From the NCBI GenBank assembly GCA_005239675.1, contig SBBO01000027.1, positions 1 through 46,174 on the forward strand: a DNA stretch of 46,174 nucleotides, written 5' to 3'. The translations under genes and the position numbers were made by a program. The stretch comes from Planctomycetales bacterium (GTDB taxonomy: Bacteria; Omnitrophota; Gorgyraeia; Zapsychrales; Zapsychraceae). Under the pieces are notes generated by a model. The model was not told where the DNA came from and made no database searches. It saw only the letters and a list, made by a program, of their open reading frames with translations. Below, piece after piece: positions 7,023-28,103 of this stretch; positions within the stretch are counted from its first letter, which is position 1, and each line of letters starts with the position of its first letter.

Positions 7023-7034
7023 ATAAAAAAATAA

Positions 7035-8309
7035 ATGGGACGCGTTGCGGTCATTAATGGCATTCGAACCCCCTTCTGCAAGATAGGCACCGATCTAAAA
7101 GATTTGGCTGCCCAGGAGCTCGGACGCATCGTAACGCGCGAACTCCTGGAACGAACGGTAATCGATCCGAGCACGATCGATGAAGTCATCTTCGGTAATG
7201 TCAGCCAGCCAGCCGATGCGGCCAATATCAGCCGTGTGATTGCCCTCTTGAGCGGCATACCCCAAACAGTGCCTGCTTACACGGTGCACCGCAACTGCGC
7301 CTCGGGGATCGAGTCTGTTGTTCAGGCCGCTATCAAAATCCAGGCAGGGCAAGGCAGGTGTTATGTCGCTGGCGGGACAGAGTCCATGAGCAACATCCCG
7401 TTTTATCTAACCAAGGAACTTAAAGAGATCCTAACCAATCTTTCCAAGGCAAAGACTTTTCTACAAAAATGGCAGGCGCTAAGTCAAATCAGGATGACAC
7501 ATCTCAAGCCGCACAGCGGATTAGAAATGGGCCTCACGGACCCCGTCTGTGGACTGATTATGGGTTCAACCGCTGAGGTCCTAGCCAGAGAATTTGACAT
7601 CACCCGCCAGCAACAGGATGACTTTGCCCTTGAGAGTCATCAACGGGCTATCCGCGGTAGAACGGCCTTGCGTGAAGAAATTGTCCCTGTCATTGCGCCT
7701 CCAAGATATAAGTCAGCGATGGAGCACGATAATGGCCCGCGTGAGGGCCAGACGAAAGAGGCCTTACAGAAATTAAAACCATATTTTGACCGACACTCAG
7801 GCACCGTGACTGTTGGCAATTCTAGTCAGGTGACCGATGGGGCGGCGGTGCTCCTTGTCGCTAGTGAGCAAAGAGCAAAAGAACTCAATCTAAAGCCCCT
7901 GGGGTTCATCCGGGCCTATGTCTTTGTTGGTGTGGAGCCGCACCGAATGGGGATAGGCCCTGCCCATGCTATCCCTCAGGTCCTTAAGAAGGCAGGGATG
8001 CATTTACGCGATATTCAAGCCATTGAAATCAACGAGGCCTTTGCCGCGCAGGTCCTGGCGTGCCTGAAGGCATTGGCCAGCGATGGTTTCACCAAACAAT
8101 TTGGCTATGAGGGATACACCGGCACCATCGACCCTGCAATTCTTAATGTCAACGGAGGGGCGATTGCCCTCGGTCATCCGGTGGGGACAACAGGGACGCG
8201 CCTCATCCTTACTATGCTCAAACACATGCAGCGTCATAACCTCAATACCGGCCTTGTGTCGTTGTGCGTTGGTGGCGGCCAAGGGGCAGCCGTAATCTTA
8301 GAACGATAA
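7035..8309 (+). CDS. acetyl-CoA C-acyltransferase (thiolase)
   Basis: NCASGIESVVQA active-site Cys, NVNGGAIALGHPVGTTGTR, LCVGGGQGAA. Confidence 0.93.
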   Translation: MGRVAVINGIRTPFCKIGTDLKDLAAQELGRIVTRELLERTVIDPSTIDEVIFGNVSQPADAANISRVIALLSGIPQTVPAYTVHRNCASGIESVVQAAIKIQAGQGRCYVAGGTESMSNIPFYLTKELKEILTNLSKAKTFLQKWQALSQIRMTHLKPHSGLEMGLTDPVCGLIMGSTAEVLAREFDITRQQQDDFALESHQRAIRGRTALREEIVPVIAPPRYKSAMEHDNGPREGQTKEALQKLKPYFDRHSGTVTVGNSSQVTDGAAVLLVASEQRAKELNLKPLGFIRAYVFVGVEPHRMGIGPAHAIPQVLKKAGMHLRDIQAIEINEAFAAQVLACLKALASDGFTKQFGYEGYTGTIDPAILNVNGGAIALGHPVGTTGTRLILTMLKHMQRHNLNTGLVSLCVGGGQGAAVILER

Positions 8310-8332
8310 AATTTATCATTAACCATCTTAAT

Positions 8333-10438
8333 ATGTCGATTAATTACTACGAAGAAAACAATATCGGCTTCATCGAATTCAACCAAGACGATTCCAAGGT
8401 CAACATCTTGACGGTACAAGCGCTGCAGGAACTTACTCTTATTGTTGCTCGGCTGCATAAGGCTGCGGCATTAAAGGCCGTTGTTTTTATCAGTAAAAAA
8501 TCCGACGTTTTTATCGCCGGCGCGGATATCAAGGAGATCGAGGGGATTAACGATCCAAGCAACGGTGAGGCTAAATCCAAGGCCGGGCAGGAAATCTTTA
8601 ACGCGATTGAAGACTTAAAGCCGCCAACCATTGCTGTCATTGATGGTGTGGCCTTGGGTGGTGGATGCGAGTTGGCCTTGGCATGCCAATATCGCCTCGC
8701 TACCTTTAATCCCAAAGCCCGTATTGGTCTACCTGAAGTGACCTTAGGCATCCTTCCGGGCTTTGGTGGCACCTATCGTCTACCACGACTCATTGGCTTG
8801 CCGGAAGGACTCAAGATGATCCTGGGAGGAAAACCTGTAGACACACCCAAGGCCCTGCGCCTAGGACTTGTAGACCGGCTCGTGACATCCAATGGACTCG
8901 AACGTCATTTAAATGAATTTATCGATGATGTATGTAATAAAAAGATCCCGGTGGACAAATACAGCCGACGGACTATTAAAGGTTTAGCTGTCTTTCAAGA
9001 AAAATCTTTCATTGGCCAAAGGATTGTCTTTCAAAGGGCAACCCAAGACGTCCTAAAAACGACTAAGGGTTTTTATCCTGCACCATTAAAAGCACTTCAC
9101 GTCATCAGGCAAAATTTCTACATGAATGATCGGGCCAAGGGCCTTGCCCTAGAATCTCAGGCCTTTGGCCAACTGGCCACTACAGCAATTTCCAAAAATC
9201 TTATCCGCGTCTTTTATCTCGCCGAAAAATACCGCAAATTGGGCGTACCTGACACAGAAGGTCTTGTGTCAAAGGCAATGACTAAATGCGGTATCGTGGG
9301 GGCTGGGGTCATGGGCGGTGGTATTGCCCAACTTTTCAGTTATATGGATATCTGGGTACGACTCAAAGACATCCATTATGACGCCCTGGCGCTGGGTCTC
9401 AAATCCGCGGCCAAGCTCTATCGAGATGCCGTCAAAAGACGACGGCTCAAGGCGCATGAGGCCATCGTCAAAATGGGCAAGATCGCCTCTACCATTGATT
9501 ACACCGGTTTTAGGAATACCGATATCGTTATCGAGGCCGTGGTCGAGGACATGGATATAAAACGCAAGGTCTTTCGCGAATTGAATAGCTGTGTCAACGA
9601 ACAGACAATTCTCGCAACCAATACCTCAGCCTTGTCGGTAAGCGAGCTGGCCAAGATAACGAAAGATCCTTCCAAAGTTATTGGCCTCCATTTTTTTAAT
9701 CCCGTCCATAAAATGCCACTCGTAGAAGTTATTACCACCCCGCAAACCAGCAAAGAAACGCTCGCGAGCGTCCTGGCGTTGGTCAAGCGCCTAGGCAAGA
9801 CTCCGATCCTGGTTAAAGATTCCTGTGGCTTTCTCGTTAACCGTATCTTGCTAGGTTATCTCAATGAGGCCGGACGCATATGGGAAGAGGGGGCAGACAT
9901 CGCCACCATAGACAAAATCATGACGGATTTTGGTATGCCCATGGGACCGCTTACGCTTTGTGATGAGATTGGACTGGATATCGGCATTAAGGTCCTGCGC
10001 ATCCTTGCTGATGGATTAGGAGAACGTTTTAAACCAGTTGCCATCTTTGAAAAGGCCTATACCGAAGGCTTTCTGGGAAAAAAATCCGGTAAGGGGTTTT
10101 ACCTACTCGACCGGCGGTCACTGGTCAAAACAAAACAATCCAACCTGCTCAATACAACCGAGTGTCTGCAACGCATGGTGTATCCAATGATCAATGAAGC
10201 GGCCCGATGCTTAGAGGAAAGAATTGTCGATGACCCGGGGGCGGTGGATGTTGGCATGATCTTCGGCACCGGCTTCCCGGCATTTCGCGGTGGATTACTA
10301 CGCTATGCCGACTCCTTGGGGATTAGCCATATAGTGGCTGGATTAAGGCAGCTCCAAGATAAATGGAGGGCCGCGCGCTTTGCGCCCGCTAACTATTTGA
10401 TAAAATTGCACAACGAACAACGAGGGTTCTACTCTTAA
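8333..10438 (+). CDS. enoyl-CoA hydratase / 3-hydroxyacyl-CoA dehydrogenase fusion (FadB/FadJ type)
   Basis: N-terminal crotonase (FIAGADIKEIE, GGGCELALACQYRLA), then GAGVMGGGIAQL Rossmann fold and HFFNPVHKMPLVEVI; start placed at ATG 8333 (MSINYYEENN) rather than 8264. Confidence 0.93.
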   Translation: MSINYYEENNIGFIEFNQDDSKVNILTVQALQELTLIVARLHKAAALKAVVFISKKSDVFIAGADIKEIEGINDPSNGEAKSKAGQEIFNAIEDLKPPTIAVIDGVALGGGCELALACQYRLATFNPKARIGLPEVTLGILPGFGGTYRLPRLIGLPEGLKMILGGKPVDTPKALRLGLVDRLVTSNGLERHLNEFIDDVCNKKIPVDKYSRRTIKGLAVFQEKSFIGQRIVFQRATQDVLKTTKGFYPAPLKALHVIRQNFYMNDRAKGLALESQAFGQLATTAISKNLIRVFYLAEKYRKLGVPDTEGLVSKAMTKCGIVGAGVMGGGIAQLFSYMDIWVRLKDIHYDALALGLKSAAKLYRDAVKRRRLKAHEAIVKMGKIASTIDYTGFRNTDIVIEAVVEDMDIKRKVFRELNSCVNEQTILATNTSALSVSELAKITKDPSKVIGLHFFNPVHKMPLVEVITTPQTSKETLASVLALVKRLGKTPILVKDSCGFLVNRILLGYLNEAGRIWEEGADIATIDKIMTDFGMPMGPLTLCDEIGLDIGIKVLRILADGLGERFKPVAIFEKAYTEGFLGKKSGKGFYLLDRRSLVKTKQSNLLNTTECLQRMVYPMINEAARCLEERIVDDPGAVDVGMIFGTGFPAFRGGLLRYADSLGISHIVAGLRQLQDKWRAARFAPANYLIKLHNEQRGFYS

Positions 10439-10461
10439 TTCATCACTAATTTTCTAAATTA

Positions 10462-11028
10462 ATGCAACGACGCGAACGACAAACCCTAATAACCGTTATT
10501 ACGGCAACTATTGGTTTCGTTTTGATTGTAACCGTACTGTGGCTGTACGCTAGACAATACCGGATGGTGGCGTATAACAACAGTTTCTATAAGTTCTCGC
10601 TGCGATATCCAGCAACATGGTCCTTCGCGGAAAACAAAAACGGCTCAGCCGTTATTTTTTATTCTCCACCGGAAAACCCTCTGGATCGCTTCTCGGAGAA
10701 CGTAAACATCGTAGTGCAGGATATTTCTAAAAACCCGCTGGACCTGGAGCAATATACAAAGATAGCCATCGACCAGATGCAGGCTATCTTTGAGACCAAC
10801 TTGGAGATCCTGGATTCAACTCAAGTCACCATGGATGGCCACCAAGGCCATCAATTGGAATTCATCGGTAAAGGCCCGGATGGAAATCTGCACTACCTGT
10901 GCCGCTGGACGCTTATTGATACTACCGCCTACCAAATAGCCTATGCCGCATTGGAGCCAGAAAACAAGGGGCATCTTAAAAGTGCCCAACGGATGATGCA
11001 TTCGTTCAAGATTCATTCAGACAATTAA
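10462..11028 (+). CDS. membrane-anchored PsbP-like domain protein
   Basis: N-terminal TM helix followed by YNNSFYKFSLRYPATWSF...LIDTTAYQIAYAA, typical of PsbP-related lipoproteins. Confidence 0.5.
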   Translation: MQRRERQTLITVITATIGFVLIVTVLWLYARQYRMVAYNNSFYKFSLRYPATWSFAENKNGSAVIFYSPPENPLDRFSENVNIVVQDISKNPLDLEQYTKIAIDQMQAIFETNLEILDSTQVTMDGHQGHQLEFIGKGPDGNLHYLCRWTLIDTTAYQIAYAALEPENKGHLKSAQRMMHSFKIHSDN

Positions 11029-11061
11029 AGGGGATCAAAAATCAGGAGAATTCCCTACTCT

Positions 11062-11604
11062 TCATAATCGTCTATTTTTCTGTTTACGATAGCGGTCTTT
11101 CGCTGCTTTAATGACCAAAATAGCTTCTTGGGAATTCTGCCAACCTTCAATCCCGGTCTTTTTATGTTCCAGTTCTTTGTATATCTTAAAGAAATGTTCG
11201 ATCTCCTTTAATAGGTGAGGAGGGATTTTTTTTAAATCAAAAATATGATTCCATGATGGATCGTTGATAGGAACGCACAAAATCTTTTCATCAGGACGGC
11301 CTTCATCGTGCATTTTAAATAAACCGATTGGCCTGACATCAATCACACAACCCGGAAATGTTTTCTCTGAAACAAGGACGAGGGCATCCAGGGGATCACC
11401 GTCTTCAGCTAAAGTTTGCGGGAAAAAACCGTAATCACTAGGATAATGAACCGCGGAAAACAACATCCTGTCAAATTTGATCATGTTGGTTTCCAGGTCA
11501 AATTCATATTTATTCCGGCTCCCTTTTGGGATCTCAATAATAACGGTGTAATATTGATTTTTATCGAACTTTTTATTCTGTTTCTTCGGTATAAAGCTCT
11601 TCAT
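11062..11604 (-). CDS. ppa: inorganic pyrophosphatase
   Basis: VIIEIPKGSRNKYEFD, DYGFFPQTLAEDGDPLDALVL; AGGAGG upstream of the start. Confidence 0.95.
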   Translation of the reverse strand: MKSFIPKKQNKKFDKNQYYTVIIEIPKGSRNKYEFDLETNMIKFDRMLFSAVHYPSDYGFFPQTLAEDGDPLDALVLVSEKTFPGCVIDVRPIGLFKMHDEGRPDEKILCVPINDPSWNHIFDLKKIPPHLLKEIEHFFKIYKELEHKKTGIEGWQNSQEAILVIKAAKDRYRKQKNRRL

Positions 11605-11643
11605 AGGTGCATGTCCTCCTAAAGATTTCTATTTAATGAGTCG

Positions 11644-11672
11644 TTGCAATAGACGAGTATTGATAATATACT
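11644..11672 (+). promoter_or_regulatory. candidate sigma70 promoter for fdx and downstream genes
   Basis: TTGCAA - 17 nt - TATACT in the ppa/fdx divergent intergenic region. Confidence 0.45.
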
Positions 11673-11762
11673 AAGATAAATTCATCAATTTGTCGAAAAC
11701 TTATTTGACCCTTTCCTTAAGAGAGTCAAAAGAATACGGCCTTTCGCCGTTTTTCCAAAATT

Positions 11763-12047
11763 ATGGATATTGAGAATATTCTCTATCAAAAACAAATCTT
11801 TGTTTGCACCAACGACCGTAAAAACGAAAAGCCCAGTTGCGGTGACCATTGCGGGGAGGCCGTCTTTACCGAGTTGCGACGCATAGCCAAAGAAAGGGGC
11901 CTGCACCCCAGAATCCGTGTGACCCAAGTCAAATGCCTTGGACAATGCGCTAACGGGGTCAACGTCATGGTCTACCCGGATGGGACGTGGTTTAAAAATG
12001 TCAGGCTCGATGATGTTGCAGAGTTAGCGAGACTTTATCTGTCATGA
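11763..12047 (+). CDS. thioredoxin-like (2Fe-2S) ferredoxin
   Basis: CTNDR...SCGDHCG...VKCLGQCANGVNVMVYPDGTWF, four-Cys shethna-type/NuoE-like pattern. Confidence 0.85.
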   Translation: MDIENILYQKQIFVCTNDRKNEKPSCGDHCGEAVFTELRRIAKERGLHPRIRVTQVKCLGQCANGVNVMVYPDGTWFKNVRLDDVAELARLYLS

Positions 12048-12071
12048 ACGATCCCTTATGGATAAATTGAA

Positions 12072-13928
12072 ATGAGCCTATTTGATAAAAATATCAGCGA
12101 AGAAAAAAAGGCCTCCCTTGAACTAGCCGAGCAATCCCGGGAGACCCAATGGCAGTATCCCAGTTTTGCCCTACACTTATTTCATGGCAAGGTCCAGTGG
12201 CCACTTATTTATCCCTTTCCTGTCCAGTCCATTGAAGATAAACGTAAGGGGGATGAATTCCTCCGTAAGCTTGAGACATTCCTTAAAAACAATTTGGACC
12301 CCAATGCGATCGACGAAACTGGTGTCATCCCTGATCATGTCATCAAGGGTTTGGCGGACCTAGGCGCGTTCGCTATCAAGATCCCGGCCGAATATGGAGG
12401 ACTGGGGATGAGTCAAGTTAATTACAACCGAGCGATTCATTTGGTTGCCAGCTACTGCGGCTCTACGGCCGTTTTATTATCCGCCCACCAAAGCATTGGC
12501 GTCCCGCAACCATTGCAACTATTCGGTACCGATGCGCAAAAAGCCAAATATCTGCCGATGTTCGCCAAAGGTGCCATCTCAGCGTTTGCCTTAACCGAAC
12601 GGCAAGCAGGGTCGGACCCCCGGCAGATGACAACCACAGCCACTCCTACCGTTGATGGAAAGCATTTTCTCATCAACGGTGAGAAACTCTGGTGTACCAA
12701 CGGCCCCATCGCCCAGGTCATCGTCGTTATGGCGCTGACACCTCCCAAAATTGTTGCTGGCAAGGAACGCAAACAAATCACCGCCTTCATTGTTGAAACG
12801 AACACACCAGGTTTTGAGGTTGTCCAGCGTTGCCGCTTTATGGGGCTAAACGGTATCCAAAATGGCCTGTTGCGCTTTCACCAGATGAAGGTCCCTCGGG
12901 AGAATATTATTCTCGGGGAAGGGGAAGGGTTGAAATTGGCCCTAACGACTCTCAACACTGGACGTTTGACCCTACCGGCGGCCGCAACGGGTATTTCCAA
13001 ATGGTGCCTTAGGGTAGCACGACAATGGGCATTGGAACGCAAACAATGGGGGGCCTCCATTGGCGAACATGAAAGCATTGCTCTGAAGTTAGGTTATATG
13101 ACCAGTCATACCTTTGCCATGGATGCCATTAGCTGGTTGACCTGCACCATGGCTGATGATAAGAACAGAGATATCCGTCTAGAAGCGGCCATAGCCAAAT
13201 ATTTCTGCACCCATCACAGCTGGCATATTGTTGATGAAACCCTGCAAATTCGTGGTGGCTCAGGCTACGAACGACAGGCCTCGCTTAAAGCCAGAGGTGT
13301 GAGGGACTGGCCGGTGGAACGGGTCTTACGAGATACGCGCATCAACCTCATTATCGAGGGGACAACGGAGATCATGCACCTTTTTATTGCCCGTGAGGCG
13401 TTGGACCCCCACCTGTCCCGGCTTGAACCTTTATTAACGGCAACCACCTCAGCCGACCGAATAAAATGCATCATCCGCGCTTGCGGTTATTATTTAATCT
13501 GGTATCCAAAGCTGTGGCTGTCCGTGAGGGGGACTGTCCTCCCAGCAGTAGATGACCGAATCAAGCCGTACCTGACTTATATCGAACGTAACAGTCGACG
13601 CGCGGCACGGGCCATGTTCCATGCCATGCTTCGCTACCAAAAGAAATTGGAGGCCAGGCAAGCGGTTCTTAACCGCCTAGTAGACATCGGGACCGAGCTC
13701 TTTGTCATGAGTGCTGTGTGCATGTATGCGGACCATCTCATGAAACATGACCAAGAAAAGGCTAATTCCATTCTTTTAGCAGAACTCTATTGCCGTACAG
13801 CCCAGGAACGAATCGAGGCACTCTTTCATCGTCAACGCGGTTGCCTTGACCGAGACAACATTGCCGTTGCCCAGAAACTTTTGGCCCAAGAATACGCATG
13901 GCTGGAAAGTGATATCGTTAAATCATGA
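12072..13928 (+). CDS. acyl-CoA dehydrogenase family protein
   Basis: FALTERQAGSDPRQM, NGEKLWCTNG, QIRGGSGYERQ, ILRDTRI-like RVLRDTRINLIIEGTTEI. Confidence 0.92.
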   Translation: MSLFDKNISEEKKASLELAEQSRETQWQYPSFALHLFHGKVQWPLIYPFPVQSIEDKRKGDEFLRKLETFLKNNLDPNAIDETGVIPDHVIKGLADLGAFAIKIPAEYGGLGMSQVNYNRAIHLVASYCGSTAVLLSAHQSIGVPQPLQLFGTDAQKAKYLPMFAKGAISAFALTERQAGSDPRQMTTTATPTVDGKHFLINGEKLWCTNGPIAQVIVVMALTPPKIVAGKERKQITAFIVETNTPGFEVVQRCRFMGLNGIQNGLLRFHQMKVPRENIILGEGEGLKLALTTLNTGRLTLPAAATGISKWCLRVARQWALERKQWGASIGEHESIALKLGYMTSHTFAMDAISWLTCTMADDKNRDIRLEAAIAKYFCTHHSWHIVDETLQIRGGSGYERQASLKARGVRDWPVERVLRDTRINLIIEGTTEIMHLFIAREALDPHLSRLEPLLTATTSADRIKCIIRACGYYLIWYPKLWLSVRGTVLPAVDDRIKPYLTYIERNSRRAARAMFHAMLRYQKKLEARQAVLNRLVDIGTELFVMSAVCMYADHLMKHDQEKANSILLAELYCRTAQERIEALFHRQRGCLDRDNIAVAQKLLAQEYAWLESDIVKS

Positions 13929-16030
13929 ATAATTTATCTTCTCTTATCAACCGCTTCCATCTCATCCGGCAGATCCCGATTTTCACAGGACTTACCTGGC
14001 TGGAGCTGCATAAAATCGCGCGAAAGACGATATTCGCCGAATACAAAAAAGGTGACATCATCTGCCGTCAGGGTGACCCTCCGGATTTTTTTTATTGTCT
14101 CATTTCTGGGCGTTTATTGGCATACAAAAGTACCCTGCGGACAGAAAGAAAAGATATTGATTTTATTCACCGTGGCATGCATTTCGGCATTGTCTCGATC
14201 TTGACAGGTGAAAACCATTCGATGACCTTTGAGGCGCTCAACGACTCGGTCATTGTGAAAATCCCAAAAGAAGACTTCCAGACAATCCTTAAAGGTATGC
14301 CACAGCTAGGCTTACGGTTAAGCCATAGCCTTTCGCGACGTATCCGACGCGGCATCCATGACAATGTACAATCGAGCGTTTTCGAAAGTACAATTGTCTC
14401 TATCTACAGTCCGGTCAAGGGGACAGGAAGCTCTACATACGCAATCAATCTTGCCTTGAGCCTGCGCAAAGAAACAGGTAAGAATGTCATATTCATTAAC
14501 ATTCATTCCAAACAAAATAATGAGCATTCTCCCAAAGATGAGACATCTCCCCACTGGAAAGGCACGCCTATTGAGTTGGCCAAGATTGTCGATGACCATA
14601 CAAAAATACTGGAGCGGGTCATTAAACAGGATCTCCCCGTTGACCTCTTGAATGTCTCTTTTGATTCACAGGACATAGGCCTCAAGAAACAAATCGGACT
14701 TTTTGTCAGCGCCTTCGTGGGTGATTATCACTATGTCGTAGTTGATCTACCCAACGACATGGACGATATTGTACTCGAGACCTTAACTCAGTCGGATACG
14801 GTGCATCTTATTACGGAGGATCGGACCAGGGACCTGGAGTCCATCCGTAAAGTCGTGGACCGCCTCGAAAACGCCATGCACACCGACAGGTCATCGGCAA
14901 GGAGAAAGCTTAACGAGGAGAAAATACGCGTCATCATGCGCGTGCTTCAGGATAAAATCTATCCTTCCATTGAAGATATCAGCAAATGCCTGGATTATCC
15001 TGTCTATGCTACCTTGCCTTACATCCAGCCAGCAGAATTAACGCAACGGCGTGATTCCCAGTATTTATTTTTTCTACAGGCCCAATTAAACAGTGAATAT
15101 ACCATGACGATAACCCGCATCGCGCGCGAAATCGGCGGAGTTTCCGTGGGCCTAGCTCTCGGGGGAGGGGCGGCGCTAGGGATTGCCCATATAGGGGTCT
15201 TACGCGTCCTGGAAAAAGAAGGCATCCCGATAGATATCATTGCGGGAAGCAGCATGGGGGCACTGATTGCCGCTTTGTGGGCCATAGGCAAGGATACCGC
15301 TGAACTAGAGAAAATCGCTCGAGAGTTTGAACAGCGAAAGAGCTTAATGAATCTCATCGACATCGTCGTGCCTATCTCCGGACTCTTTGGGGGACGAAAA
15401 ATCAAACATTGGCTGCGAAAACATTTCGGAACACGGACATTTTACAGTGTTCGCGTTCCATTAAAGGTCGTTGCCTATGACTTGATCCGCCGTGAAGAGC
15501 TTATCCTGGAATCCGGACTACTCGTGGACGCTATTCGTAAAAGCATTGCCATCCCCGGCGTCCTTGAGCCAATTCGCGAGAAAGACCGGCTGATCATTGA
15601 CGGCGGAGTCCTTAATCCATTGCCGACCAATGTTCTTTCTAGTCGGCGTATAAAAAAAATTATCGCCGTCAATGTCCTACAATCACCCCACGACACGACC
15701 GAAAGCTTCGCCGCGGCTAAAGACGCCGAACTCAAATTGGAGCAATTATCCTTTCATCAAGCGCCGTTTCGCTTCCTGCAATTCCGCATACTGCGCTTTT
15801 TACTGGACCCCTTCAAACACAACATCTCGGATATCATCGTGCGTACCCTCCAAGCGAGCGAATACGTGTTGGCGGAACAAAGCGCTCAACAAGCAGATGT
15901 CGTGATCCATCCCGATTTGGTTGGTATTAACTGGTTCGAACTCTATAAGGTCGAGGATCTCATCAGGCGTGGGGAGGAAGCTACCTACCGAGCCATGCCG
16001 GAAATTAAAAAGCTAATTGAAACTGAATAA
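13925..16030 (+). CDS. cNMP-binding / MinD-CpaE-like P-loop / patatin-like phospholipase (NTE/RssA-type)
   Basis: N-terminal cyclic-nucleotide-binding fold (IFTGLTWLELHKIARK...GDIICRQGD); middle VSIYSPVKGTGSSTYAINLAL...YVVVDLPN; C-terminal GGGAALGIAHIGVL, GSSMG, DGGVLNPLP. Confidence 0.88.
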   Translation: MNNLSSLINRFHLIRQIPIFTGLTWLELHKIARKTIFAEYKKGDIICRQGDPPDFFYCLISGRLLAYKSTLRTERKDIDFIHRGMHFGIVSILTGENHSMTFEALNDSVIVKIPKEDFQTILKGMPQLGLRLSHSLSRRIRRGIHDNVQSSVFESTIVSIYSPVKGTGSSTYAINLALSLRKETGKNVIFINIHSKQNNEHSPKDETSPHWKGTPIELAKIVDDHTKILERVIKQDLPVDLLNVSFDSQDIGLKKQIGLFVSAFVGDYHYVVVDLPNDMDDIVLETLTQSDTVHLITEDRTRDLESIRKVVDRLENAMHTDRSSARRKLNEEKIRVIMRVLQDKIYPSIEDISKCLDYPVYATLPYIQPAELTQRRDSQYLFFLQAQLNSEYTMTITRIAREIGGVSVGLALGGGAALGIAHIGVLRVLEKEGIPIDIIAGSSMGALIAALWAIGKDTAELEKIAREFEQRKSLMNLIDIVVPISGLFGGRKIKHWLRKHFGTRTFYSVRVPLKVVAYDLIRREELILESGLLVDAIRKSIAIPGVLEPIREKDRLIIDGGVLNPLPTNVLSSRRIKKIIAVNVLQSPHDTTESFAAAKDAELKLEQLSFHQAPFRFLQFRILRFLLDPFKHNISDIIVRTLQASEYVLAEQSAQQADVVIHPDLVGINWFELYKVEDLIRRGEEATYRAMPEIKKLIETE

Positions 16031-16086: not shown

Positions 16087-18159
16087 ATGCCAGACACCCC
16101 AAAAATAAGAGTCGGTTCGCGCAACAGTGCTTTAGCGCGCGTTCAGGTCGATGAAATCGAGCTCCTGTTAAAGCAAGCAGGAACGATGGCTATCCTGGAA
16201 CGTAAAACATACCTGACCAGAGGCGACAAGGATCAGGTGAGCTCACTAATTAGTAATCCAGCCGATAATTTCTTTACCGACACCCTGGACCAGGCCCTCC
16301 TAGAGGGGGCAATCGACGTTGCCATCCATAGTGCCAAAGATTTGCCTCAATCCTTACCAGAAGGATTAACCCTCTTTGCCTTGACCCGTAGCCCAGATGA
16401 CACCGATGCATTTGTTGGCAAAACTAGCTTTGACCGGATGCCCAGCGGGGCGCAGATCGCGACCAGCAGTCTCTTACGCCAAGAACAGCTTAGGCTTTTG
16501 CGACCCGATCTAAAAATCGTTGACATCCGTGGCACTATCGAAGAACGCCTGCACAAACTTGAGCACGGCAATTGCGATGGATTAATTGTAGCGACTGTCG
16601 CCCTTAAGCGGCTGAAGCTCGAAAGGCACATTCAAAACATTATGCCCTGGGAGACCGCGCCAACTCAGGGCCAACTGGCCGTTGTAGGGCGCTCACAAGG
16701 TTCGCAAGACGCCGCGTTAAAAGAACTGTTTTCCAAGATTGATGTCCGCACGACTTACGGCCGCGTGCTGCTTGTCGGCGCAGGCCCTGGTGACCCAGAG
16801 TTAATTACTGTTAAGGGCCTGCAGGTGCTCGCGGCCGCCGACTGTGTGGTGTACGATTACCTTGTCCCGTTACAACTTTTAGAATATGCTAAGAATGCGG
16901 AGAAAATTTATGCCGGCAAACGCAAAGGCACCCAAACCATGCCGCAATACGAGCTTAATAAACTGCTACGCAAAAAGGCCCTGGCTGGAAAAACGGTCGT
17001 GCGTCTCAAGGGCGGAGATCCATTGGTATTCGGCCGCGGTGCTGATGAGATTGACTACCTGCGGCGTTACTATATTGATGTGGAAATTATCCCAGGGATC
17101 AGTTCTGCTGTTGGGATTCCCTCGCGTTTAGGGGTCCCCTTGACCGCGCGCGACATTTCCTCTTCGGTTGCCTTTGTGAGTGGTTACCGCAAAGGGGAAG
17201 GCAATGCCGAGCTGCTGGAGATTCCGTCCACTGACACCTTGATCTTTTTGATGGGCCTAACCAAGCTCGACCACATCGTCCGGTCACTGGAGCTGGCCGG
17301 CTGGGGCCGTGATACGCCAATGATGATTATCTCCAAAGGGACATGGCCGGAGGAGAAAATTGTGCGCGCCACCATTGCCACCATCCAAGAAAAGGTGAGG
17401 GCACAAACCATTGACCCGCCCGTCTTAATAATCGTTGGCAAGACGCTTCAATTCTACCAGGCGCCAACGGCCGGCGTGCGCCCGCGCATCCTATGCACAG
17501 GGACCAATCCACAGCCCTACGAGAAGCTCGGCAAGATCATTTTATTTCCAACAATTGAGATTGTGCCCGCTCAACTGGACGTGACTATCCAAAAAACGTT
17601 ACTGACGAATCTGGCCCACTACGATATAATTTTATTCACCAGTCGGTTTGGCGTACGGTATTTCTGGGAGCTATTAACTCAAAGACCAGATGTCCAAGCC
17701 CAGGTGCGCGTTAAGCCGTTTGCTGTCATCGGCCAGATAACTGCCCGCGAGATTATAGAATACCGTGTGCGTAAATTGCTCATAGCACAACGTGAGACAA
17801 GCGAAGGACTTCTAGAAGAACTAAGGACTGACTTCAACCTGCGGGGGAAGAAAATCCTTTTCCCACGCTCATCTCTACCAAACCCTTATTTAAAAGAAAG
17901 ATTGATAGGAGAAGGTGCCCAGGTCGATGAACTCACCATCTACGAGAATATTAAACCACCCAAACGCACGTTGCCGCAGACGTGGATTGATGCGATTTTA
18001 TTTACTAGCCCATCCACGGTACGAAATTTTCTAGAAGATTACAATGCCATCCCGGAACACTGGCGCATCTTAAGCCGTGGGTCTTTGACCAGCGCCTGTT
18101 TAAAGGAAAAAGGCTACACGACTTTTCAGGAACTCGACCAATGTCTCTACGAAGAATAA
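16087..18159 (+). CDS. fusion: HemC-like (domains 1-2) + uroporphyrinogen-III C-methyltransferase (CobA/SUMT) + uroporphyrinogen-III synthase (HemD)
   Basis: HemC-like IRVGSRNSALARVQ, AIHSAKDLP; SUMT VGAGPGDPELITVKG, VVRLKGGDPLVFGRG, EIIPGISSAVG; HemD-like C-terminus LFTSRFGVRYFWELL, ILFTSPSTVRNFLE. Confidence 0.92.
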   Translation: MPDTPKIRVGSRNSALARVQVDEIELLLKQAGTMAILERKTYLTRGDKDQVSSLISNPADNFFTDTLDQALLEGAIDVAIHSAKDLPQSLPEGLTLFALTRSPDDTDAFVGKTSFDRMPSGAQIATSSLLRQEQLRLLRPDLKIVDIRGTIEERLHKLEHGNCDGLIVATVALKRLKLERHIQNIMPWETAPTQGQLAVVGRSQGSQDAALKELFSKIDVRTTYGRVLLVGAGPGDPELITVKGLQVLAAADCVVYDYLVPLQLLEYAKNAEKIYAGKRKGTQTMPQYELNKLLRKKALAGKTVVRLKGGDPLVFGRGADEIDYLRRYYIDVEIIPGISSAVGIPSRLGVPLTARDISSSVAFVSGYRKGEGNAELLEIPSTDTLIFLMGLTKLDHIVRSLELAGWGRDTPMMIISKGTWPEEKIVRATIATIQEKVRAQTIDPPVLIIVGKTLQFYQAPTAGVRPRILCTGTNPQPYEKLGKIILFPTIEIVPAQLDVTIQKTLLTNLAHYDIILFTSRFGVRYFWELLTQRPDVQAQVRVKPFAVIGQITAREIIEYRVRKLLIAQRETSEGLLEELRTDFNLRGKKILFPRSSLPNPYLKERLIGEGAQVDELTIYENIKPPKRTLPQTWIDAILFTSPSTVRNFLEDYNAIPEHWRILSRGSLTSACLKEKGYTTFQELDQCLYEE

Positions 18160-19178
18160 AAACAAAAGAATCTGTTCTATCGTTTGCTGCCCAACAACGA
18201 CGAAATCGTTCCCGTCGACTGCGGGCATCCCCAGCCTTACGAAGTCTTGTGTGCGAAACAACGCTAACGCCCAACAATTTGATTCAACCCTTCTTCGTCA
18301 TTGAAGGGACAAATAAAAAAGAAACCATCGCTGCTATGCCCGGGGTGTACCGTTACTCGCTCGATCTTTTACTCAAGGCAATTGAGTCCTTCCAGAACGC
18401 TGGCGGCAAGGCGTGTCTTTTATTTGGCCTACCCCACAAGAAAGATGCCCAGGCCAGTCAGGCGTACGCCAAGACCGCGATTGTGCCCAAAGCTATACGT
18501 CAGCTTAAAAAAAAATTTCCGGGGCTTGTCGTGATATCCGATGTGTGTTTATGTGCTTACATGGACCACGGACACTGCGGTATCGTAGAAAATAAAATAA
18601 TCAATAATGACCAGACATTGCCTCTTTTAGTCAAAATGGCACTGGCACACGCTTACGCCGGTGCCGACTTGGTTGCCCCTTCGGATATGATGGATTTACG
18701 CATAGGGGTTATCCGTGATGCATTGGATCAAAATGGATTGATCAATGTTGGGATCCTGTCTTATGCCGTCAAATATGCCTCAGCCTATTACGGGCCCTTC
18801 TGCGAGGCCGCTGATTCTGCACCCCAATTTGGCGACCGCAAAACCTATCAAATGGATTTTGCAAATCAACGCGAAGCACTCAAAGAAGCCCATCAAGATG
18901 TCTTGGAAGGGGCCGATATCATCATGGTCAAACCTGCCCTGGCCTATCTTGATATTGTGAGTTTACTACGTCGAGAGCTAGTAGTACCTATTGCCGCCTA
19001 CAGCGTGAGTGGCGAATATGCGATGATGAAGGCTGCGGCGGCAAAAAACTGGATTAATGAACGTAGTCTTGTCCTAGAAACCCTGACAGCGATCAAACGC
19101 GCCGGTGCGGATATAATTGTCAGCTATCACGCACAAGATGCACTGCAATGGATGCGAGAGACAAAAGGTAAGAGATAA
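18141..19178 (+). CDS. hemB: porphobilinogen synthase (delta-aminolevulinic acid dehydratase)
   Basis: DVCLCAYMDHGHCGI (Zn-type Cys), APSDMMDLRIG, SYAVKYASAYYGPF, MVKPALAYLD; overlaps the fusion gene by 19 nt. Confidence 0.96.
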   Translation: MSLRRIKTKESVLSFAAQQRRNRSRRLRASPALRSLVCETTLTPNNLIQPFFVIEGTNKKETIAAMPGVYRYSLDLLLKAIESFQNAGGKACLLFGLPHKKDAQASQAYAKTAIVPKAIRQLKKKFPGLVVISDVCLCAYMDHGHCGIVENKIINNDQTLPLLVKMALAHAYAGADLVAPSDMMDLRIGVIRDALDQNGLINVGILSYAVKYASAYYGPFCEAADSAPQFGDRKTYQMDFANQREALKEAHQDVLEGADIIMVKPALAYLDIVSLLRRELVVPIAAYSVSGEYAMMKAAAAKNWINERSLVLETLTAIKRAGADIIVSYHAQDALQWMRETKGKR

Positions 19179-19181
19179 AAA

Positions 19182-20468
19182 ATGCGCACCCAACACTCTC
19201 AAGAATATTTCCACCAGGCCGAAGATGTTTTAGTCGGTGGGGTCAACAGCCCGGTCCGCTCATTTCAGGGGGTGGGGGGCCAGCCATTGGTGATGAAATA
19301 CGGCCGTGGTGCAAAATTGTACGATTACGACAACAATGCCTATACGGATTACTGCCTTTCATGGGGCGCGCTCATCCTTGGGCACGCACCCCCCAACGTC
19401 ATCTTGGGTGCCAAGAAAACTCTGGAGAAAGGCACCAGCTTCGGCACCACGACCCGCGAAGAAATCGAACTGGCTCAATATATTATCCAACACATCCCGT
19501 CCATTGAACTGATCCGTTTTGTCAATTCCGGCACCGAAGCGACAATGAGCGCGCTACGCCTGGCCCGCGGCTTTACTGGTCGCGCCATGGTAGTCAAATT
19601 CGACGGCTGCTACCACGGCCACTGCGATGATCTTTTAACAACATCTGGATCAGGGGTGGCCCAACTAAAAGAATCCTCTAGTCTCGCCCGTGGAATTCCA
19701 GAAAACCATATCCACAATACGCTTAGTTTGCCGTATAATGATATTGCTGTCTTAGAAGAGACCCTAAAAAAACATAAAGATCATATTGCTTGTGTCATCA
19801 TTGAGCCGGTTGCCGGCAATATGGGGGTTATTCCCGGCCAGCTAGAATTTCTGCAACGCCTACGGCAGCTAACAGAACAGTATGGCATTCTATTAATCTT
19901 TGACGAAATCATGACCGGATTCCGGACAAGGGCCGGTGGGGTACAAACGAATTATGGAATTGCCCCCGATATCACCTGTTTAGGGAAAATCATCGGAGCT
20001 GGGTTTCCTATCGGCGCTTATGGGGGACGTAAAGACATCATGCGCTGTTTGGCTCCTTTGGGTAACGTATACCAGGCAGGGACGTTTTCTGGGAATCCTG
20101 TTGTCATGCGCGCTGGACTAGCAACCTTGAAGCTGCTAGATACAAAATTTTATGAACGGCTCAACGCTAAATGCGCCGCCTTTATCCAAGATATCAATGG
20201 GTTCTTAAACACCAACGCGATCCCTGTCCATATAACCCATTACCATGCCATGATGAGTATTCGCTTCCAGCAACAACCAGTAACAAATTATGCTAACGCG
20301 CAGGCTGCAGCAGGGGGGGAGCGGTACAGCAGGCTTTTTTGGCATTTACTGAGTGCTGGTATTTATTGGCCGCCGGCCAATCTGGAGGCATTCTTCATTT
20401 CCAGCGCACATACAATCAAAGATCTGGAATATTTATGTACTCAACTTAAAAAATTCTTAAAACCATGA
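19182..20468 (+). CDS. hemL: glutamate-1-semialdehyde 2,1-aminomutase
   Basis: GGVNSPVRSFQGVGGQPLV, NSGTEATMSALRLARG, FDEIMTGFR, PLP Lys context CLGKIIGAGFPIGAYGG. Confidence 0.96.
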   Translation: MRTQHSQEYFHQAEDVLVGGVNSPVRSFQGVGGQPLVMKYGRGAKLYDYDNNAYTDYCLSWGALILGHAPPNVILGAKKTLEKGTSFGTTTREEIELAQYIIQHIPSIELIRFVNSGTEATMSALRLARGFTGRAMVVKFDGCYHGHCDDLLTTSGSGVAQLKESSSLARGIPENHIHNTLSLPYNDIAVLEETLKKHKDHIACVIIEPVAGNMGVIPGQLEFLQRLRQLTEQYGILLIFDEIMTGFRTRAGGVQTNYGIAPDITCLGKIIGAGFPIGAYGGRKDIMRCLAPLGNVYQAGTFSGNPVVMRAGLATLKLLDTKFYERLNAKCAAFIQDINGFLNTNAIPVHITHYHAMMSIRFQQQPVTNYANAQAAAGGERYSRLFWHLLSAGIYWPPANLEAFFISSAHTIKDLEYLCTQLKKFLKP

Positions 20469-23166: not shown

Positions 23167-23577
23167 TCAAAATGGAATTGTTTCTGGAAGACGTTGGTGG
23201 GGGGTCATGGCCTCAACTCGCTCGACAGTGATCTCTGCGAGGGAAAAATTGGGGTCCTGCGGTCCGCCAAAGTATTGCTTGAGCATGGGGATATTATCCC
23301 AAAGAATAGTCTTTTCATTAGAATCAGTTGTGATCTTGGCAAGGCCTGCGATGCGACAATACCACATTTTCCTATCAACAAAACATAATTCAACTCTAGG
23401 GTTTTTTATTATCTGAGCAATGCTGCGTGACCGGGATAGCAAGGCCACCAAGATTCTTCCGGTATCTTCCACCAAATACGGCATCATCGGCCGCACCCGT
23501 GGCTGATTATCCTCAGTCGTTGCCAAATAGCCGAAACCAGCATCTCTAATTAAGTCAATAACTTCTTCTTTCTTCAT
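23167..23577 (-). CDS. pyridoxamine 5'-phosphate oxidase-like (FMN-binding) family protein
   Basis: GFGYLATTEDNQPRVRPMMPYLVEDTGRILVALLSRSRSIAQIIKNPRVELCFVD. Confidence 0.85.
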   Translation of the reverse strand: MKKEEVIDLIRDAGFGYLATTEDNQPRVRPMMPYLVEDTGRILVALLSRSRSIAQIIKNPRVELCFVDRKMWYCRIAGLAKITTDSNEKTILWDNIPMLKQYFGGPQDPNFSLAEITVERVEAMTPHQRLPETIPF

Positions 23578-24403
23578 AAGATAACCGTCCTTTCGAAGAT
23601 GCGTCTTTTTCCTTGAATTTATCCGTCCCTAAGCGATCCTTATTCTTGATGCTAATCATCTCAGCGGCAATGGCAATCGCGATCTCTTCTGGCAACTGAG
23701 CGCCTATGTCAATTCCTGCGGGGATGTTAACACGGGCAAGCCTTGCCGCAGATACCCCCTCCTCCTTAAGCCTGGCAAAAAATTTGATCCGTTTGGCCTT
23801 GCTAGAAATCACCCCTAAATAGCCGACATTCACCCGGATAGCCGCCTGAAGACACTCAAAATCGTGTTCATTGCCATGAGTAACTACCATAATATAAGTA
23901 TTCTGATCAAGGGGTATTTGAGATAATTTCTGGGCATGGGGACCAACCATAATCCGATCCACATAGGGAAATCGCTTAGCATTGGCGAATTCTTTACGAT
24001 TATCAATAATGGTAACTCGAAAATTGAGCATCTTACCTATGACCGACAAGGGCAGTGCAATGTGACCTGCCCCACAGATGACCAAATGTTTGGGAGCCCG
24101 GAAAGGTTCCACAAAGACCTTGATTTTCCCCCCGCAAACCGACTGTCCCATGCCCCCAAAATAGTCATAGCTGACAATCCTGGACAGTCCAGACTTGATC
24201 GCCTTAAGGCATTCTTGCTGGGCAGCCTTTTCGTTACGCCCCCCTCCTATGGATCCCCAAAGCGTTCCGTCCTCCAAGACAATCATCTTGGCCCCTGCCT
24301 TGCGGGGAGTTCCTTTAAGGGTGGATTCCACGATGGTTGCCACCGCGTAACTTCGCCCTCCCTCAACGGCCTTGAGGGCCTTTATCAACAATTCGTGCTC
24401 CAT
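23555..24403 (-). CDS. XdhC/CoxI family protein (molybdenum hydroxylase maturation)
   Basis: TPRKAGAKMIVLEDGTLWGSIGGG, VICGAGHIALPLSVIGKMLNFRVTIIDNR, YLGVISSKAKR, PAGIDIGAQLPEEIAIAIAAEM. Confidence 0.92.
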   Translation of the reverse strand: MEHELLIKALKAVEGGRSYAVATIVESTLKGTPRKAGAKMIVLEDGTLWGSIGGGRNEKAAQQECLKAIKSGLSRIVSYDYFGGMGQSVCGGKIKVFVEPFRAPKHLVICGAGHIALPLSVIGKMLNFRVTIIDNRKEFANAKRFPYVDRIMVGPHAQKLSQIPLDQNTYIMVVTHGNEHDFECLQAAIRVNVGYLGVISSKAKRIKFFARLKEEGVSAARLARVNIPAGIDIGAQLPEEIAIAIAAEMISIKNKDRLGTDKFKEKDASSKGRLSYEERRSY

Positions 24404-25062
24404 TATTCTTTTTTCTCTGAAATCGGTGAGTCAGAAGGTAAGGGTAGCTTTGTTAACGATTTAGGCAGCGCCCCTCCTCCCGCCAAACCTAATGCTGAAT
24501 CCTCAGGAGCTGTAGTAGTGACTACGCCCGCGTGGTTTGCCTTAAGGGATTTAAGTAAGCTGGTCATTTCTTCTTCTTTAGCAAAAATCGCCTTCTCCAG
24601 CCTTGTTACCTTTTCTTCCAGATAGTTGATTCTTTCTTTGTAGCGCTCGCCCTCAGCCTGGGACGCATTTAATTCAACTTGGGTGATACGCGTCTTGTCT
24701 TTAGCGTCCTTCAATTCCTTTTCCAAGATGTCTTTGAGCTTATTGAATCCTTTGCGATTATTAACTTCTGCCTGAAGCAATTCTTCAGCCTTTGTTAGTG
24801 CCGCGCTTTCTTCCTGAAATAGTTTATCGAGGCGCTGGTATTTCTCCATCCATTGGTCCCGTTGGGCTGTTAGGCTAATTTCCTGTTCAATAATTCTTCC
24901 TTCAGATGGTAGCGTAGCTTCTGACCCCAACGCAGGATTGATCAAAGGGATAGGAATTTTGGGCAATAGCCTATCTTCTTCTTTTTCTTCCTTGCGTAGA
25001 AGTAATAAAACAGTTGCGACGCCCAAAACTGAGATTACCAGCAAAATATAAAATATCACCAT
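24403..25062 (-). CDS. membrane-anchored coiled-coil protein of unknown function
   Basis: N-terminal TM (VIFYILLVISVLGVATVLLLL) followed by long heptad-like Lys/Glu-rich coiled coil; overlaps the xdhC start. Confidence 0.7.
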   Translation of the reverse strand: MVIFYILLVISVLGVATVLLLLRKEEKEEDRLLPKIPIPLINPALGSEATLPSEGRIIEQEISLTAQRDQWMEKYQRLDKLFQEESAALTKAEELLQAEVNNRKGFNKLKDILEKELKDAKDKTRITQVELNASQAEGERYKERINYLEEKVTRLEKAIFAKEEEMTSLLKSLKANHAGVVTTTAPEDSALGLAGGGALPKSLTKLPLPSDSPISEKKE

Positions 25063-25111
25063 AATGTATCTTTTGATTATAGCTCTATTAAGGTTATTTG
25101 AATATTCGTCA

Positions 25112-25139
25112 TTGACACGGCCATAATCACCCCTATAAT
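25112..25139 (+). promoter_or_regulatory. consensus sigma70 promoter for the mocA-like gene
   Basis: TTGACA - 16 nt - TATAAT, both hexamers exact. Confidence 0.75.
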
Positions 25140-25146
25140 TTGATCT

Positions 25147-25737
25147 GTGATTTCTGCTATCCTATTATCCGCAGGTACGAACAACCGCTTCGGTAGCCCC
25201 AAGGCGTTGGCCAAGCTAGGAGATGAGAGCGTAATTGATCGCCTACTTAAGGCTCTCATCGCAGCAGATATTGACGAAATTATCGTTGTCCTCGGGTCCG
25301 GGGCGGACCAGATAAAACCTCACCTATTTAAGCATAAAAATATTCATACTGTCTATAATAAAGATTATAATTTGGGCCAGACATCATCATTTAAAATCGG
25401 GTTAACTGCTGTCAGTCCCCAGGCAACCGGTATTTTACTATTACCCGTTGATTATCCGCTAATCCGAGAATATACCCTGACTCAATTGGTTGCCTACTTT
25501 AAGGAAAATAATCCTACGATCCTAATCCCGACATATCAAGATCACAAGGGACACCCCCCGATCTTTAGCAACCGACTCAAGGAAGAATTGCTCGCCCTAG
25601 ACAATGGCGAGGGGATCAATACGCTTATTCATCGACATCTAAACGAGACATCGCTTCTCCCCCTCCACGATGCAGGTGTCATCCAAAGCTTTAACACTCA
25701 AGAGGAATTTGAAAGACTAAAAAGGATAGTAAGCTAA
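25147..25737 (+). CDS. nucleotidyltransferase, molybdenum cofactor cytidylyltransferase-like (MocA)
   Basis: ISAILLSAGTNNRFGSPKALAKLGDESVIDRLL, LLLPVDYPLI, HKGHPPIFSNRL; GTG start. Confidence 0.8.
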   Translation: MISAILLSAGTNNRFGSPKALAKLGDESVIDRLLKALIAADIDEIIVVLGSGADQIKPHLFKHKNIHTVYNKDYNLGQTSSFKIGLTAVSPQATGILLLPVDYPLIREYTLTQLVAYFKENNPTILIPTYQDHKGHPPIFSNRLKEELLALDNGEGINTLIHRHLNETSLLPLHDAGVIQSFNTQEEFERLKRIVS

Positions 25738-25750
25738 AGAGTAAAAGTGA

Positions 25751-28096
25751 TTACGCTGAGGCCTGGGCTGCAAGTTCAAACTTTTCTTTTTCCATCAAGG
25801 CCTTGATAATCTTGTCTGGCGTAAAAGGAAGCTCCTTGAGGCGGATGCCGACCGCGTCATAGATCGCATTGGCAATGGCCGCCGATGTTGGCAATAAAGA
25901 GGCCTCCCCCATGCCCTTGGCACCGAATGGGCCTTCGGGGTCATTGCTTTCAACCATAATGGACTCAACGGGCGGGGTTCCCATGCTGCGGGGAAGACGA
26001 TAATTCGCAAAGTTGCCATTGGCAGGACGTCCTTTCTGATCAAACCGCAAATTTTCTAAGAACGTATATCCGATCCCCATCACCAGCGACCCCTCGATCT
26101 GGCCTTCCACGGCCTGAGGGTTAATAGCCTTGCCGATATCGTGGGCGTCCCACATTTTTAAAAGCTTGACTTCACCGGTTTCCTTATTGACCTCAACCTC
26201 AGCGACTTGAGCCTCGAACCCATAACTTCCCGAGACGTTTCCTTCTCCAGTACGAAAATCAATGGGCGTTGTCGGTGGATTATAACTACCGCGACCGATG
26301 ATCTGTCGACCATAGTTAAACGAATAGCAAAGCTCCAAGGCCTTGTCAAAATCCATCAAAATAGAATTGTCTTTTTTAAGGATAACCTCTTCCGCCGCAA
26401 TATCCAACTCTGCCGCATTAAGGTTATTTTCTTTGGCAACCACATCGAGGATTTGCTGCTTGGCATCGCGAGCAGCCCGTAGAGTCGCATTGCCGGAGAT
26501 AAACGTCACGCGACTGGCGAAACTTCCTGTGTCAAAGGGGGTGATCTCGGTGTCACCGGACTTGCATCGGATGCGGTTGTAGCTTACTCCCAGCTCATGG
26601 GCGGCAATCTGGGAAAGGGCTGTGTTAGAACCTTGACCAGTATCCGCTGCCCCCGTAAATAAATAGACAGAACCGTCCTCTTCTACCTTGACAATAGATC
26701 CCGCTGATTCATGCGATTTATACATCTTGGAGCCCATCACATCTGCGGCAATCCCGATCCCTATCCCGCGGCACAGATGTTTCTGTTGACCACGTTTTTT
26801 ATACCAATCTGAGGCGCTCACTGCCTTCTCAATGCATTCACGTAGACCGTTGGTTGTTATGACCATCTTGTTGATAGTCACCATGTTGGGACCCGTGATA
26901 TTCTTTAGGCGAAAGACAATGGGGTCCATACCGATCGCCTCAGCGACCATGTCCATGTGCGATTCAATAGCAAACCCAGCCTGGACACCGCCAAAACCCC
27001 GCATAGCGCCGCTAATGGGGGTATTGGTATACACCCGGTAACCAGTCATCCGAAAATGTTGAATTTTATATACCATAAAAATGCGCATGATGGCGGCGGC
27101 CAAGACCGTTGGCCCATAACTGCAATACGCGCCGCCATCGGCAATGACCTCTCCTGTCATCGCCAGTAGCGTACCGTCTTTTTTAACCCCCGATTTGACG
27201 GTATAGATCATGCCATGTTTGCGCCGCGAGGCAATGAATTCCTCCTCGCGGTTATAACAAATTTTGACCGGTAATCCTCCTGCCTTCTTAGAAAGAAGAC
27301 AGCTGGCAAAATCCATCGGAAGCATCTCCAATTTACCACCAAACCCACCACCCACCGCCAGCTTGATGACACGAACATCGTTGAGGTCGATATTGAGCGT
27401 CTTAGCCAGTGCCTCACGGCACTTGAATGGCGCCTGGGTGGATGACCACAGCGTAATCTTATTGGAAAATGTCTCCCATTGACCAACACAGACATGTGGT
27501 TCAAGGGCCGCGTGATGGGCCGCCGGGGCGTAAAAACGATCCTCCCGGACATAATCCGCCTCCTTCATGACGCGGTCCGGATTACCAAAATTAACGGGTA
27601 ATATAACAGCGATATTGTTCAAAGATTCGTGAATCTGCGGGGCGTCGGGTTTCATCGCCTCTTGAACATCAAAGACAGCGGGTAGAGGCTCATACTGGAC
27701 ATCGATTAAGCCTAGGGCTTGCTCTGCTATTTCCTCATCGATGGCGGCAACGGCGCCGATTTCATCCCCGACATAGCGCACCTTTTCGGATTCAATGGCC
27801 ATCTGATCAACAGTGTGCGGAAAAAAATATTCATTGGAACCAAATTTAATATTGTAGGTATCTTTGGCGGTAATAATGGCCCGCACCCCGGGCAATTTCT
27901 CAGCCCTCGTAGTATCGATACTTAATATCTTGGCGTGGGGGTGTGGACTGCGGATCATCTTACCGATGAGCATATTGGGAAAACTGACATCAAAGGCATA
28001 TTTGGCCTGGCCAGTTACCATGCCCTTACCATCGATACGCGGCACGCTTTTACCGACCGGATTCACGTATTCCTTGTTCAAGGTTGCCGTTTTCAT
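25751..28096 (-). CDS. xanthine dehydrogenase-family molybdopterin-binding subunit (substrate uncertain)
   Basis: VGGGFGGKLEM, GAMRGFGGVQAG, GAADTGQGSNTALSQIAA, FGAKGMGEASLLP (candidate catalytic Glu). Confidence 0.9.
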   Translation of the reverse strand: MKTATLNKEYVNPVGKSVPRIDGKGMVTGQAKYAFDVSFPNMLIGKMIRSPHPHAKILSIDTTRAEKLPGVRAIITAKDTYNIKFGSNEYFFPHTVDQMAIESEKVRYVGDEIGAVAAIDEEIAEQALGLIDVQYEPLPAVFDVQEAMKPDAPQIHESLNNIAVILPVNFGNPDRVMKEADYVREDRFYAPAAHHAALEPHVCVGQWETFSNKITLWSSTQAPFKCREALAKTLNIDLNDVRVIKLAVGGGFGGKLEMLPMDFASCLLSKKAGGLPVKICYNREEEFIASRRKHGMIYTVKSGVKKDGTLLAMTGEVIADGGAYCSYGPTVLAAAIMRIFMVYKIQHFRMTGYRVYTNTPISGAMRGFGGVQAGFAIESHMDMVAEAIGMDPIVFRLKNITGPNMVTINKMVITTNGLRECIEKAVSASDWYKKRGQQKHLCRGIGIGIAADVMGSKMYKSHESAGSIVKVEEDGSVYLFTGAADTGQGSNTALSQIAAHELGVSYNRIRCKSGDTEITPFDTGSFASRVTFISGNATLRAARDAKQQILDVVAKENNLNAAELDIAAEEVILKKDNSILMDFDKALELCYSFNYGRQIIGRGSYNPPTTPIDFRTGEGNVSGSYGFEAQVAEVEVNKETGEVKLLKMWDAHDIGKAINPQAVEGQIEGSLVMGIGYTFLENLRFDQKGRPANGNFANYRLPRSMGTPPVESIMVESNDPEGPFGAKGMGEASLLPTSAAIANAIYDAVGIRLKELPFTPDKIIKALMEKEKFELAAQASA

Positions 28097-28103
28097 ATCT
28101 TAC

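Follow-up and report, generated by a model that had tools for sequence, protein, structure and literature searches.

How can a hydroxymethylbilane synthase (HemC) build its product if it lacks the domain that normally anchors its cofactor? In canonical HemC, a thioether links a dipyrromethane to a Cys that has been called invariant; the cofactor sits in the space formed by domains 1 and 2, and movement of this Cys draws it through the cleft (PMC3949521; PMC8561815). The dipyrromethane is thought to be central to the mechanism (PMC7242693; PMC3949521; PMC8561815). The question is raised by one gene in a 46,174-nucleotide stretch of DNA from a member of the Omnitrophota (the window), in which an earlier note had described a HemC-CobA-HemD fusion with neither HemC domain 3 nor the cofactor Cys.

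The open reading frame (16087..18159, + strand) encodes a fusion of 690 aa, as delineated by ORF calling with Pfam and NCBIfam profiles; its frame, length, and coordinates are exactly those given in the earlier note. HemC domains 1 and 2 occupy residues 7-204 (16105..16698, + strand) and are matched by PF01379 at 176.7 bits against a Pfam cut-off of 22.1, with no domain 3 following them in the profile match or the predicted structure. At the point where domain 3 would be expected to begin, residues 205-224 (16699..16758, + strand) are predicted to form a short helix and linker, modeled as helical at 206-218 and 220-223. The glycine-rich VGAGPGD of the methyltransferase follows at 230-236, so that the direct passage from HemC into this motif noted earlier holds, with only the short helix preceding it. 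The CobA part (SUMT, uroporphyrinogen-III C-methyltransferase; residues 225-456; 16759..17454, + strand) exceeds the cut-off of the SUMT model TIGR01469 (247.5 vs. 185 bits), with the tetrapyrrole methylase domain PF00590 at residues 227-433. The HemD part (uroporphyrinogen-III synthase; residues 483-678; 17533..18120, + strand) likewise passes PF02602 (124.2 vs. 27.5 bits). Downstream, Pfam and NCBIfam profiles identify hemB (porphobilinogen synthase; 18141..19178, + strand), which starts within the last 19 bases of the fusion, and hemL (glutamate-1-semialdehyde aminomutase; 19182..20468, + strand).

The absence of domain 3 extends beyond this ORF. A Pfam search of the fusion found no PF03900. 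Relaxing the threshold to E<=10 brought up none in the whole assembly either; 11 control genomes were positive in this search. PF01379 occurs once in the genome. A second hemC or a separate domain 3 can thus be rejected there, and with it the suggestion that the fusion is the partner of a full-length HemC encoded elsewhere; none was found in the short-only relatives described below either. The assembly is 87% complete in 50 contigs, so its own absences are weak evidence taken alone; the loss is credible because it holds in dozens of relatives.

Alignment also bears out the motif changes and the intact catalytic Asp context reported in the earlier note. The sequence reads PADNFFTDTLD where canonical HemC has GGKGLFVKE, eliminating both Lys59 and Lys64 (E. 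coli numbering), and the FFTD signature (residues 62-65; 16270..16281, + strand) stands where the canonical lid has LFVK. TSSLRRQ has become TSSLLRQ, with Arg131 replaced by Leu and Arg132 retained. The HSAKD motif (residues 81-85; 16327..16341, + strand) includes the catalytic Asp equivalent to E. coli Asp84, and Lys83 and the cleft arginines 11, 132, 149, 155, and 176 are present as well. Ahead of the CobA part there is a single Cys, Cys163 (16573..16575, + strand), located in HGNCDG as had been stated.

Searches for PF01379 and PF03900, which the earlier note had proposed for the genome and its relatives, revealed the short-only pattern in both. Among 193 Omnitrophota genomes, PF01379 was present in 104 and PF03900 in 58; the remaining 46 of the HemC-bearing genomes, including that of the window, have short HemC only, two of them (G062 and G169) with a gene end that is unreadable. 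In readable loci, short HemC is found as a stand-alone protein (209-259 aa from stop to stop), as a HemC-HemD fusion (families f40 and f44), or as a HemC-CobA-HemD fusion. Genome G144 encodes a HemC-CobA fusion, with a second, overlapping frame for HemD, in a region where the sequence is partly masked. Further triple fusions are found in public records (L106-L108, L110-L113, and L136), some possibly from the same genomes as the sample.

A Chlamydiae record (L117) provided the lead into a second phylum. Of 92 Chlamydiota genomes sampled, 80 carry HemC and 79 of these lack a match to PF03900. Only G259 departs from the pattern: its gene, 332 aa long, includes a domain 3 that scores below the threshold. 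The short-only genomes include what appears to be Chlamydia itself as well as complete-looking genomes of 1.0-1.3 Mb. In 12 small Chlamydiota genomes, mostly single-contig, the HemC frames span 235-262 aa, and one of these Chlamydia-like proteins matches NCBIfam NF002202, named hydroxymethylbilane synthase, at 431.5 bits. Many other Chlamydiota have a HemD fusion, as judged by ORF length and HEM4 overlap. Two records carry fusions of HemA to short HemC (GlutR_N, Shikimate_DH, and PF01379; L153:5128-6657 and L119:3447-5360); L153 and L136 belong to one assembly, which thus has two short HemCs. Genome G067 has a full-length HemC (L010, on G067:C45) together with a short hemC-cobA-hemB operon on a 3-kb contig (L094, on G067:C28), a combination that could be real or stray contamination.

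In an unrooted maximum-likelihood tree of 115 HemC sequences, all full-length proteins, including that of E. coli, fall on the opposite side of one branch from the short HemCs (support 100/98). The Chlamydiota group (99/95) and the fused clade (100/100) are each set apart by a branch of their own. The window HemC lies on the short side, shares the FFT signature, and ends after domain 2. Because full-length and short forms split at one branch, a single origin of the short form is possible, and as the tree is unrooted, gain and loss of domain 3 are not ordered by it.

The residues that remain are strongly conserved. The main alignment comprises 46 short sequences, 44 from short-only genomes and two from genomes in which a full-length HemC is present as well; two further sets were centered on Chlamydiota (n=34) and on Chlamydia-like sequences (n=12). 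In all 46, R11, S13, Q19, D46, F62, H80, S81, K83, D84, S128, S129, R132, R149, G150, R155, A170, R176, Q198, and G199 are kept (E. coli numbering), and the other two sets agree except for one row with S13T. C242, in contrast, is found in none of the 46, nor in either of the other sets. Lys59 is lost throughout the short family, with Ser, Thr, or Asp in its place in most of the 46 sequences. Loss of Lys64 and an aliphatic residue at position 131 are traits of the fused subclade: Leu, Val, or Ile occurs at 131 only in the window's eight fused relatives, whereas others have mostly Arg and sometimes Lys, Ser, Ala, or Asn. The replacement of Lys59 need not abolish catalysis, as a crystallized E. 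coli variant carrying Gln at this position was used to accumulate ES2 (PMC8561815).

Structure prediction of residues 1-225, another check proposed in the earlier note, yielded a HemC fold (AlphaFold2; pLDDT 95.1, pTM 0.90). The top 32 PDB matches to this model are all HemC, with TM scores of 0.76-0.90 normalized to the query, and the best is E. coli HemC (1pda). In the model of all 690 residues (pTM 0.53), the CobA part and its surroundings are poor and the interdomain arrangement is not readable.

The genomic setting is that of tetrapyrrole synthesis. In the window, the hemC-cobA-hemD fusion is followed by hemB and hemL, and where a locus extends far enough for the neighbors to be seen, short hemC is mostly accompanied by cobA, with or without hemD, and by hemB and hemL. 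Elsewhere in the genome, hemA adjoins a ferrochelatase gene. The siroheme decarboxylase domain PF17805 is absent from this genome and from seven relatives, which argues against a siroheme-decarboxylase route to heme and makes the ferrochelatase route more likely. Given hemA, ferrochelatase, and the missing decarboxylase domain, uroporphyrinogen III probably feeds both the CobA branch and the heme branch in this organism. The ferrochelatase ORF itself (L245:864-2219, on G000:C4) is 452 aa long, has about 120 residues before the Pfam domain, and has hemA and the gene for ATP synthase subunit a as neighbors.

Taken together, the sole gene copy, the conserved cleft, the operon, and the predicted fold favor the non-canonical deaminase among the explanations put forward earlier. 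Short HemC is quite probably an active hydroxymethylbilane synthase consisting of domains 1 and 2 only and operating without a Cys-bound dipyrromethane primer. Judging from conservation and the predicted structure, domains 1 and 2 with their arginine-lined cleft would bind porphobilinogen and join it by means of the conserved Asp. With domain 3 and its Cys absent, the usual Cys-bound dipyrromethane could not anchor the growing chain. The cleft might then hold a dipyrromethane or a porphobilinogen as a non-covalent primer, or there may be no primer. The fused HemD would receive the product and convert it to uroporphyrinogen III, which would then go either to CobA in the same protein or into the heme branch. 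If porphobilinogen started the chain, aminomethylbilane would be the expected product. Aminomethylbilane is a poor substrate for HemD. The fusion to HemD in many lineages thus favors hydroxymethylbilane as the product, and a held primer, wherever HemD is present. Counting against an active enzyme is the fused subclade itself, which has also lost Arg131 and Lys64 and has changed further than the stand-alone relatives.

Several other explanations must be weighed against this one. The dipyrromethane could still be covalently bound, with canonical chemistry, to a different residue, whether a Cys that varies between lineages or a Ser, Thr, or Lys. Most short HemCs do contain at least one Cys: it occurs at E. 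coli position 75 in 19/34 sequences of the Chlamydiota-centered set and in 10/12 of the Chlamydia-like set, and at position 218 in 14/34. Cys163 of the window protein could in principle be such an anchor, yet as a general replacement it is rejected, with Cys at its column (position 164) in only four of 46 homologues, the window protein included. Against a moved anchor, no column is universally Cys in any of the three sets, and Cys is entirely lacking from six complete stand-alone ORFs (L071, L075, L086, L122, L148, and L216), which come from Omnitrophota, WOR-1, Chlamydiota, and one further bacterium. A Cys anchor therefore cannot be general, though a non-Cys anchor might be, and we regard relocation of the attachment site as unlikely. 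It is a good deal harder to believe that domain 3 is supplied in trans by a stand-alone protein that has diverged too far for PF03900. Extreme divergence can escape profile searches, but nothing matched at E<=10 in the window's own genome, the operon neighbors are known enzymes, and no conserved spare small protein is present in the 15 aligned loci described below.

The idea of a degenerate scaffold, the HemC part being regulatory or structural, tetrapyrrole coming from elsewhere, and only CobA and HemD being active, draws on the missing domain 3 and on the replacement of Lys59, Lys64, and Arg131 in the fusion. It is disfavored, and indeed very improbable, since the remaining substrate-binding and catalytic residues are near-invariant in three sets comprising dozens of divergent sequences, the operons contain hemB and hemL, which make porphobilinogen, and HemD requires the product of HemC in genomes from which full-length HemC is absent. 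Least credible, to the point of being negligible, is an artefact in which a frameshift, misassembly, or binning cut off domain 3. The incomplete, 50-contig assembly of the window would allow for it; for the family as a whole it is ruled out by a boundary that recurs unchanged across numerous independent assemblies, contigs of more than 1 Mb among them, by the additional triple fusions in public records, and by the 100/98 split in the tree.

A further puzzle is posed by genomes in which HemD appears to be missing. In the Omnitrophota sample, no HEM4 match was found in 16/46 short-only genomes compared to 1/58 genomes with full-length HemC, the latter being only 56% complete. The association of short HemC with HemD absence (Fisher test, p=4e-6) is inflated by shared ancestry, because a single subclade of the tree holds the HemD-less sequences. 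A profile built from the HemDs of sister short-HemC genomes detected both positive controls and had no match in 15 of the 16 genomes; in G115 it gave only a 56-residue match with E=0.01. The idea of a HemD hidden by divergence is thus rejected within the reach of this profile, which found nothing convincing in the 16 genomes. With G062 (82% complete) left out, the remaining 15 genomes represent nine families, with completeness of 90-99%. Their loci (L075, L079-L086, L088, L089, L091-L093, and L095) all contain a gene resembling PAPS reductase, a Met8-like dehydrogenase, hemA, and short hemC, followed in 14/15 by cobA, hemB, hemL, and a small nitrite/sulfite reductase; L079 terminates at a contig end. 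With gene identities confirmed by Pfam for L091, these loci look like a siroheme operon for sulfate assimilation that has no known uroporphyrinogen-III synthase. HemD-less sequences are marked by Pro at column 12, Ser at 103, and His at 171; His 171 also occurs in HemD-bearing members of the same subclade (L087 and L090), and these columns may mark ancestry rather than function.

It is possible, if on the unlikely side, that porphobilinogen is polymerized without any dipyrromethane, for example from free porphobilinogen, and that the HemD-less genomes make siroheme without a classical uroporphyrinogen-III synthase. The type III isomer would then be set by short HemC or by another enzyme, or a type I siroheme would be used. 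The HmbS of Plasmodium falciparum was once proposed to perform both steps and was later shown not to do so (PMC8698207), which makes an unrecognized HemD a serious alternative to an intrinsic activity of HemC in these genomes. No pathway other than the classical one is described for making uroporphyrinogen III (PMC7242693).

Other genes in the window are of interest in their own right. Directly upstream of the hem operon, a 701-aa protein (13925-16030) combines a cyclic-nucleotide-binding domain, a weak MinD-like AAA match, and a patatin phospholipase domain (Pfam). A protein of the PsbP family, known from photosystem II, is encoded at 10462-11028 (Pfam). An apparent beta-oxidation cluster (5532-13928) includes an AMP-binding ligase, a thiolase, a hydratase/dehydrogenase, and an acyl-CoA dehydrogenase, and a cluster of the xanthine/aldehyde oxidoreductase type (23167-29460) has MoCoBD, 2Fe-2S, and FAD subunits and XdhC, with a MobA-like gene on the opposite strand.

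Short HemC is widespread and apparently unremarked. Almost all Chlamydiota in the sample, along with many Omnitrophota, seem to manage with neither the textbook anchor Cys nor its domain. The need for a covalent primer thereby becomes testable with small natural enzymes, some of which are Cys-free, and the HemD-less siroheme operons pose the question of how the type III isomer is set. The window protein and four stand-alone forms from Omnitrophota and WOR-1 pass the cut-off of the general HemC model while matching only about its first 70-75%, so that automatic annotation hides the loss of domain 3. The earlier note had asked whether the architecture is already characterized: a short family exists in NCBIfam (NF002202) and a fusion of HemC with CobA-HemD has been noted in Euryarchaeota, but no description of a HemC without domain 3 was found in the open-access literature on short or Chlamydia HemC, HemD, and their fusions.

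Compared with canonical HemC (TIGR00212; E. coli 1pda/1ah5 and human HMBS), the short proteins share domains 1 and 2, Asp84, and most of the cleft residues, and the window HemC part shows 33-35% identity to the E. coli structures in the region that aligns. They differ in having no domain 3 (PF03900), Cys242, or Lys59, and the fused clade has lost Lys64 and Arg131 in addition. A close known counterpart is the chlamydial HemC of NF002202 (PRK01066, 241 positions), which likewise ends after domain 2 and has the signatures FFT, DIRGTIEERL, and LQG.LA in common with the short HemCs; other Chlamydiota HemCs also fall on the short side of the tree. The chlamydial protein is stand-alone in Chlamydia-like genomes, whereas the window HemC is fused to CobA-HemD and remains below the NF002202 cut-off (170.9 vs. 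251 bits). With respect to fusion, a report on Euryarchaeota notes, in its cluster 192.3, proteins joining HemC to CobA-HemD (PMC11237513), the same three enzymes as in the window protein. A Leptospira HmbS-UroS protein, for which dual activity is reported as cited in PMC8698207, unites HemC and HemD as seen here, but without CobA.
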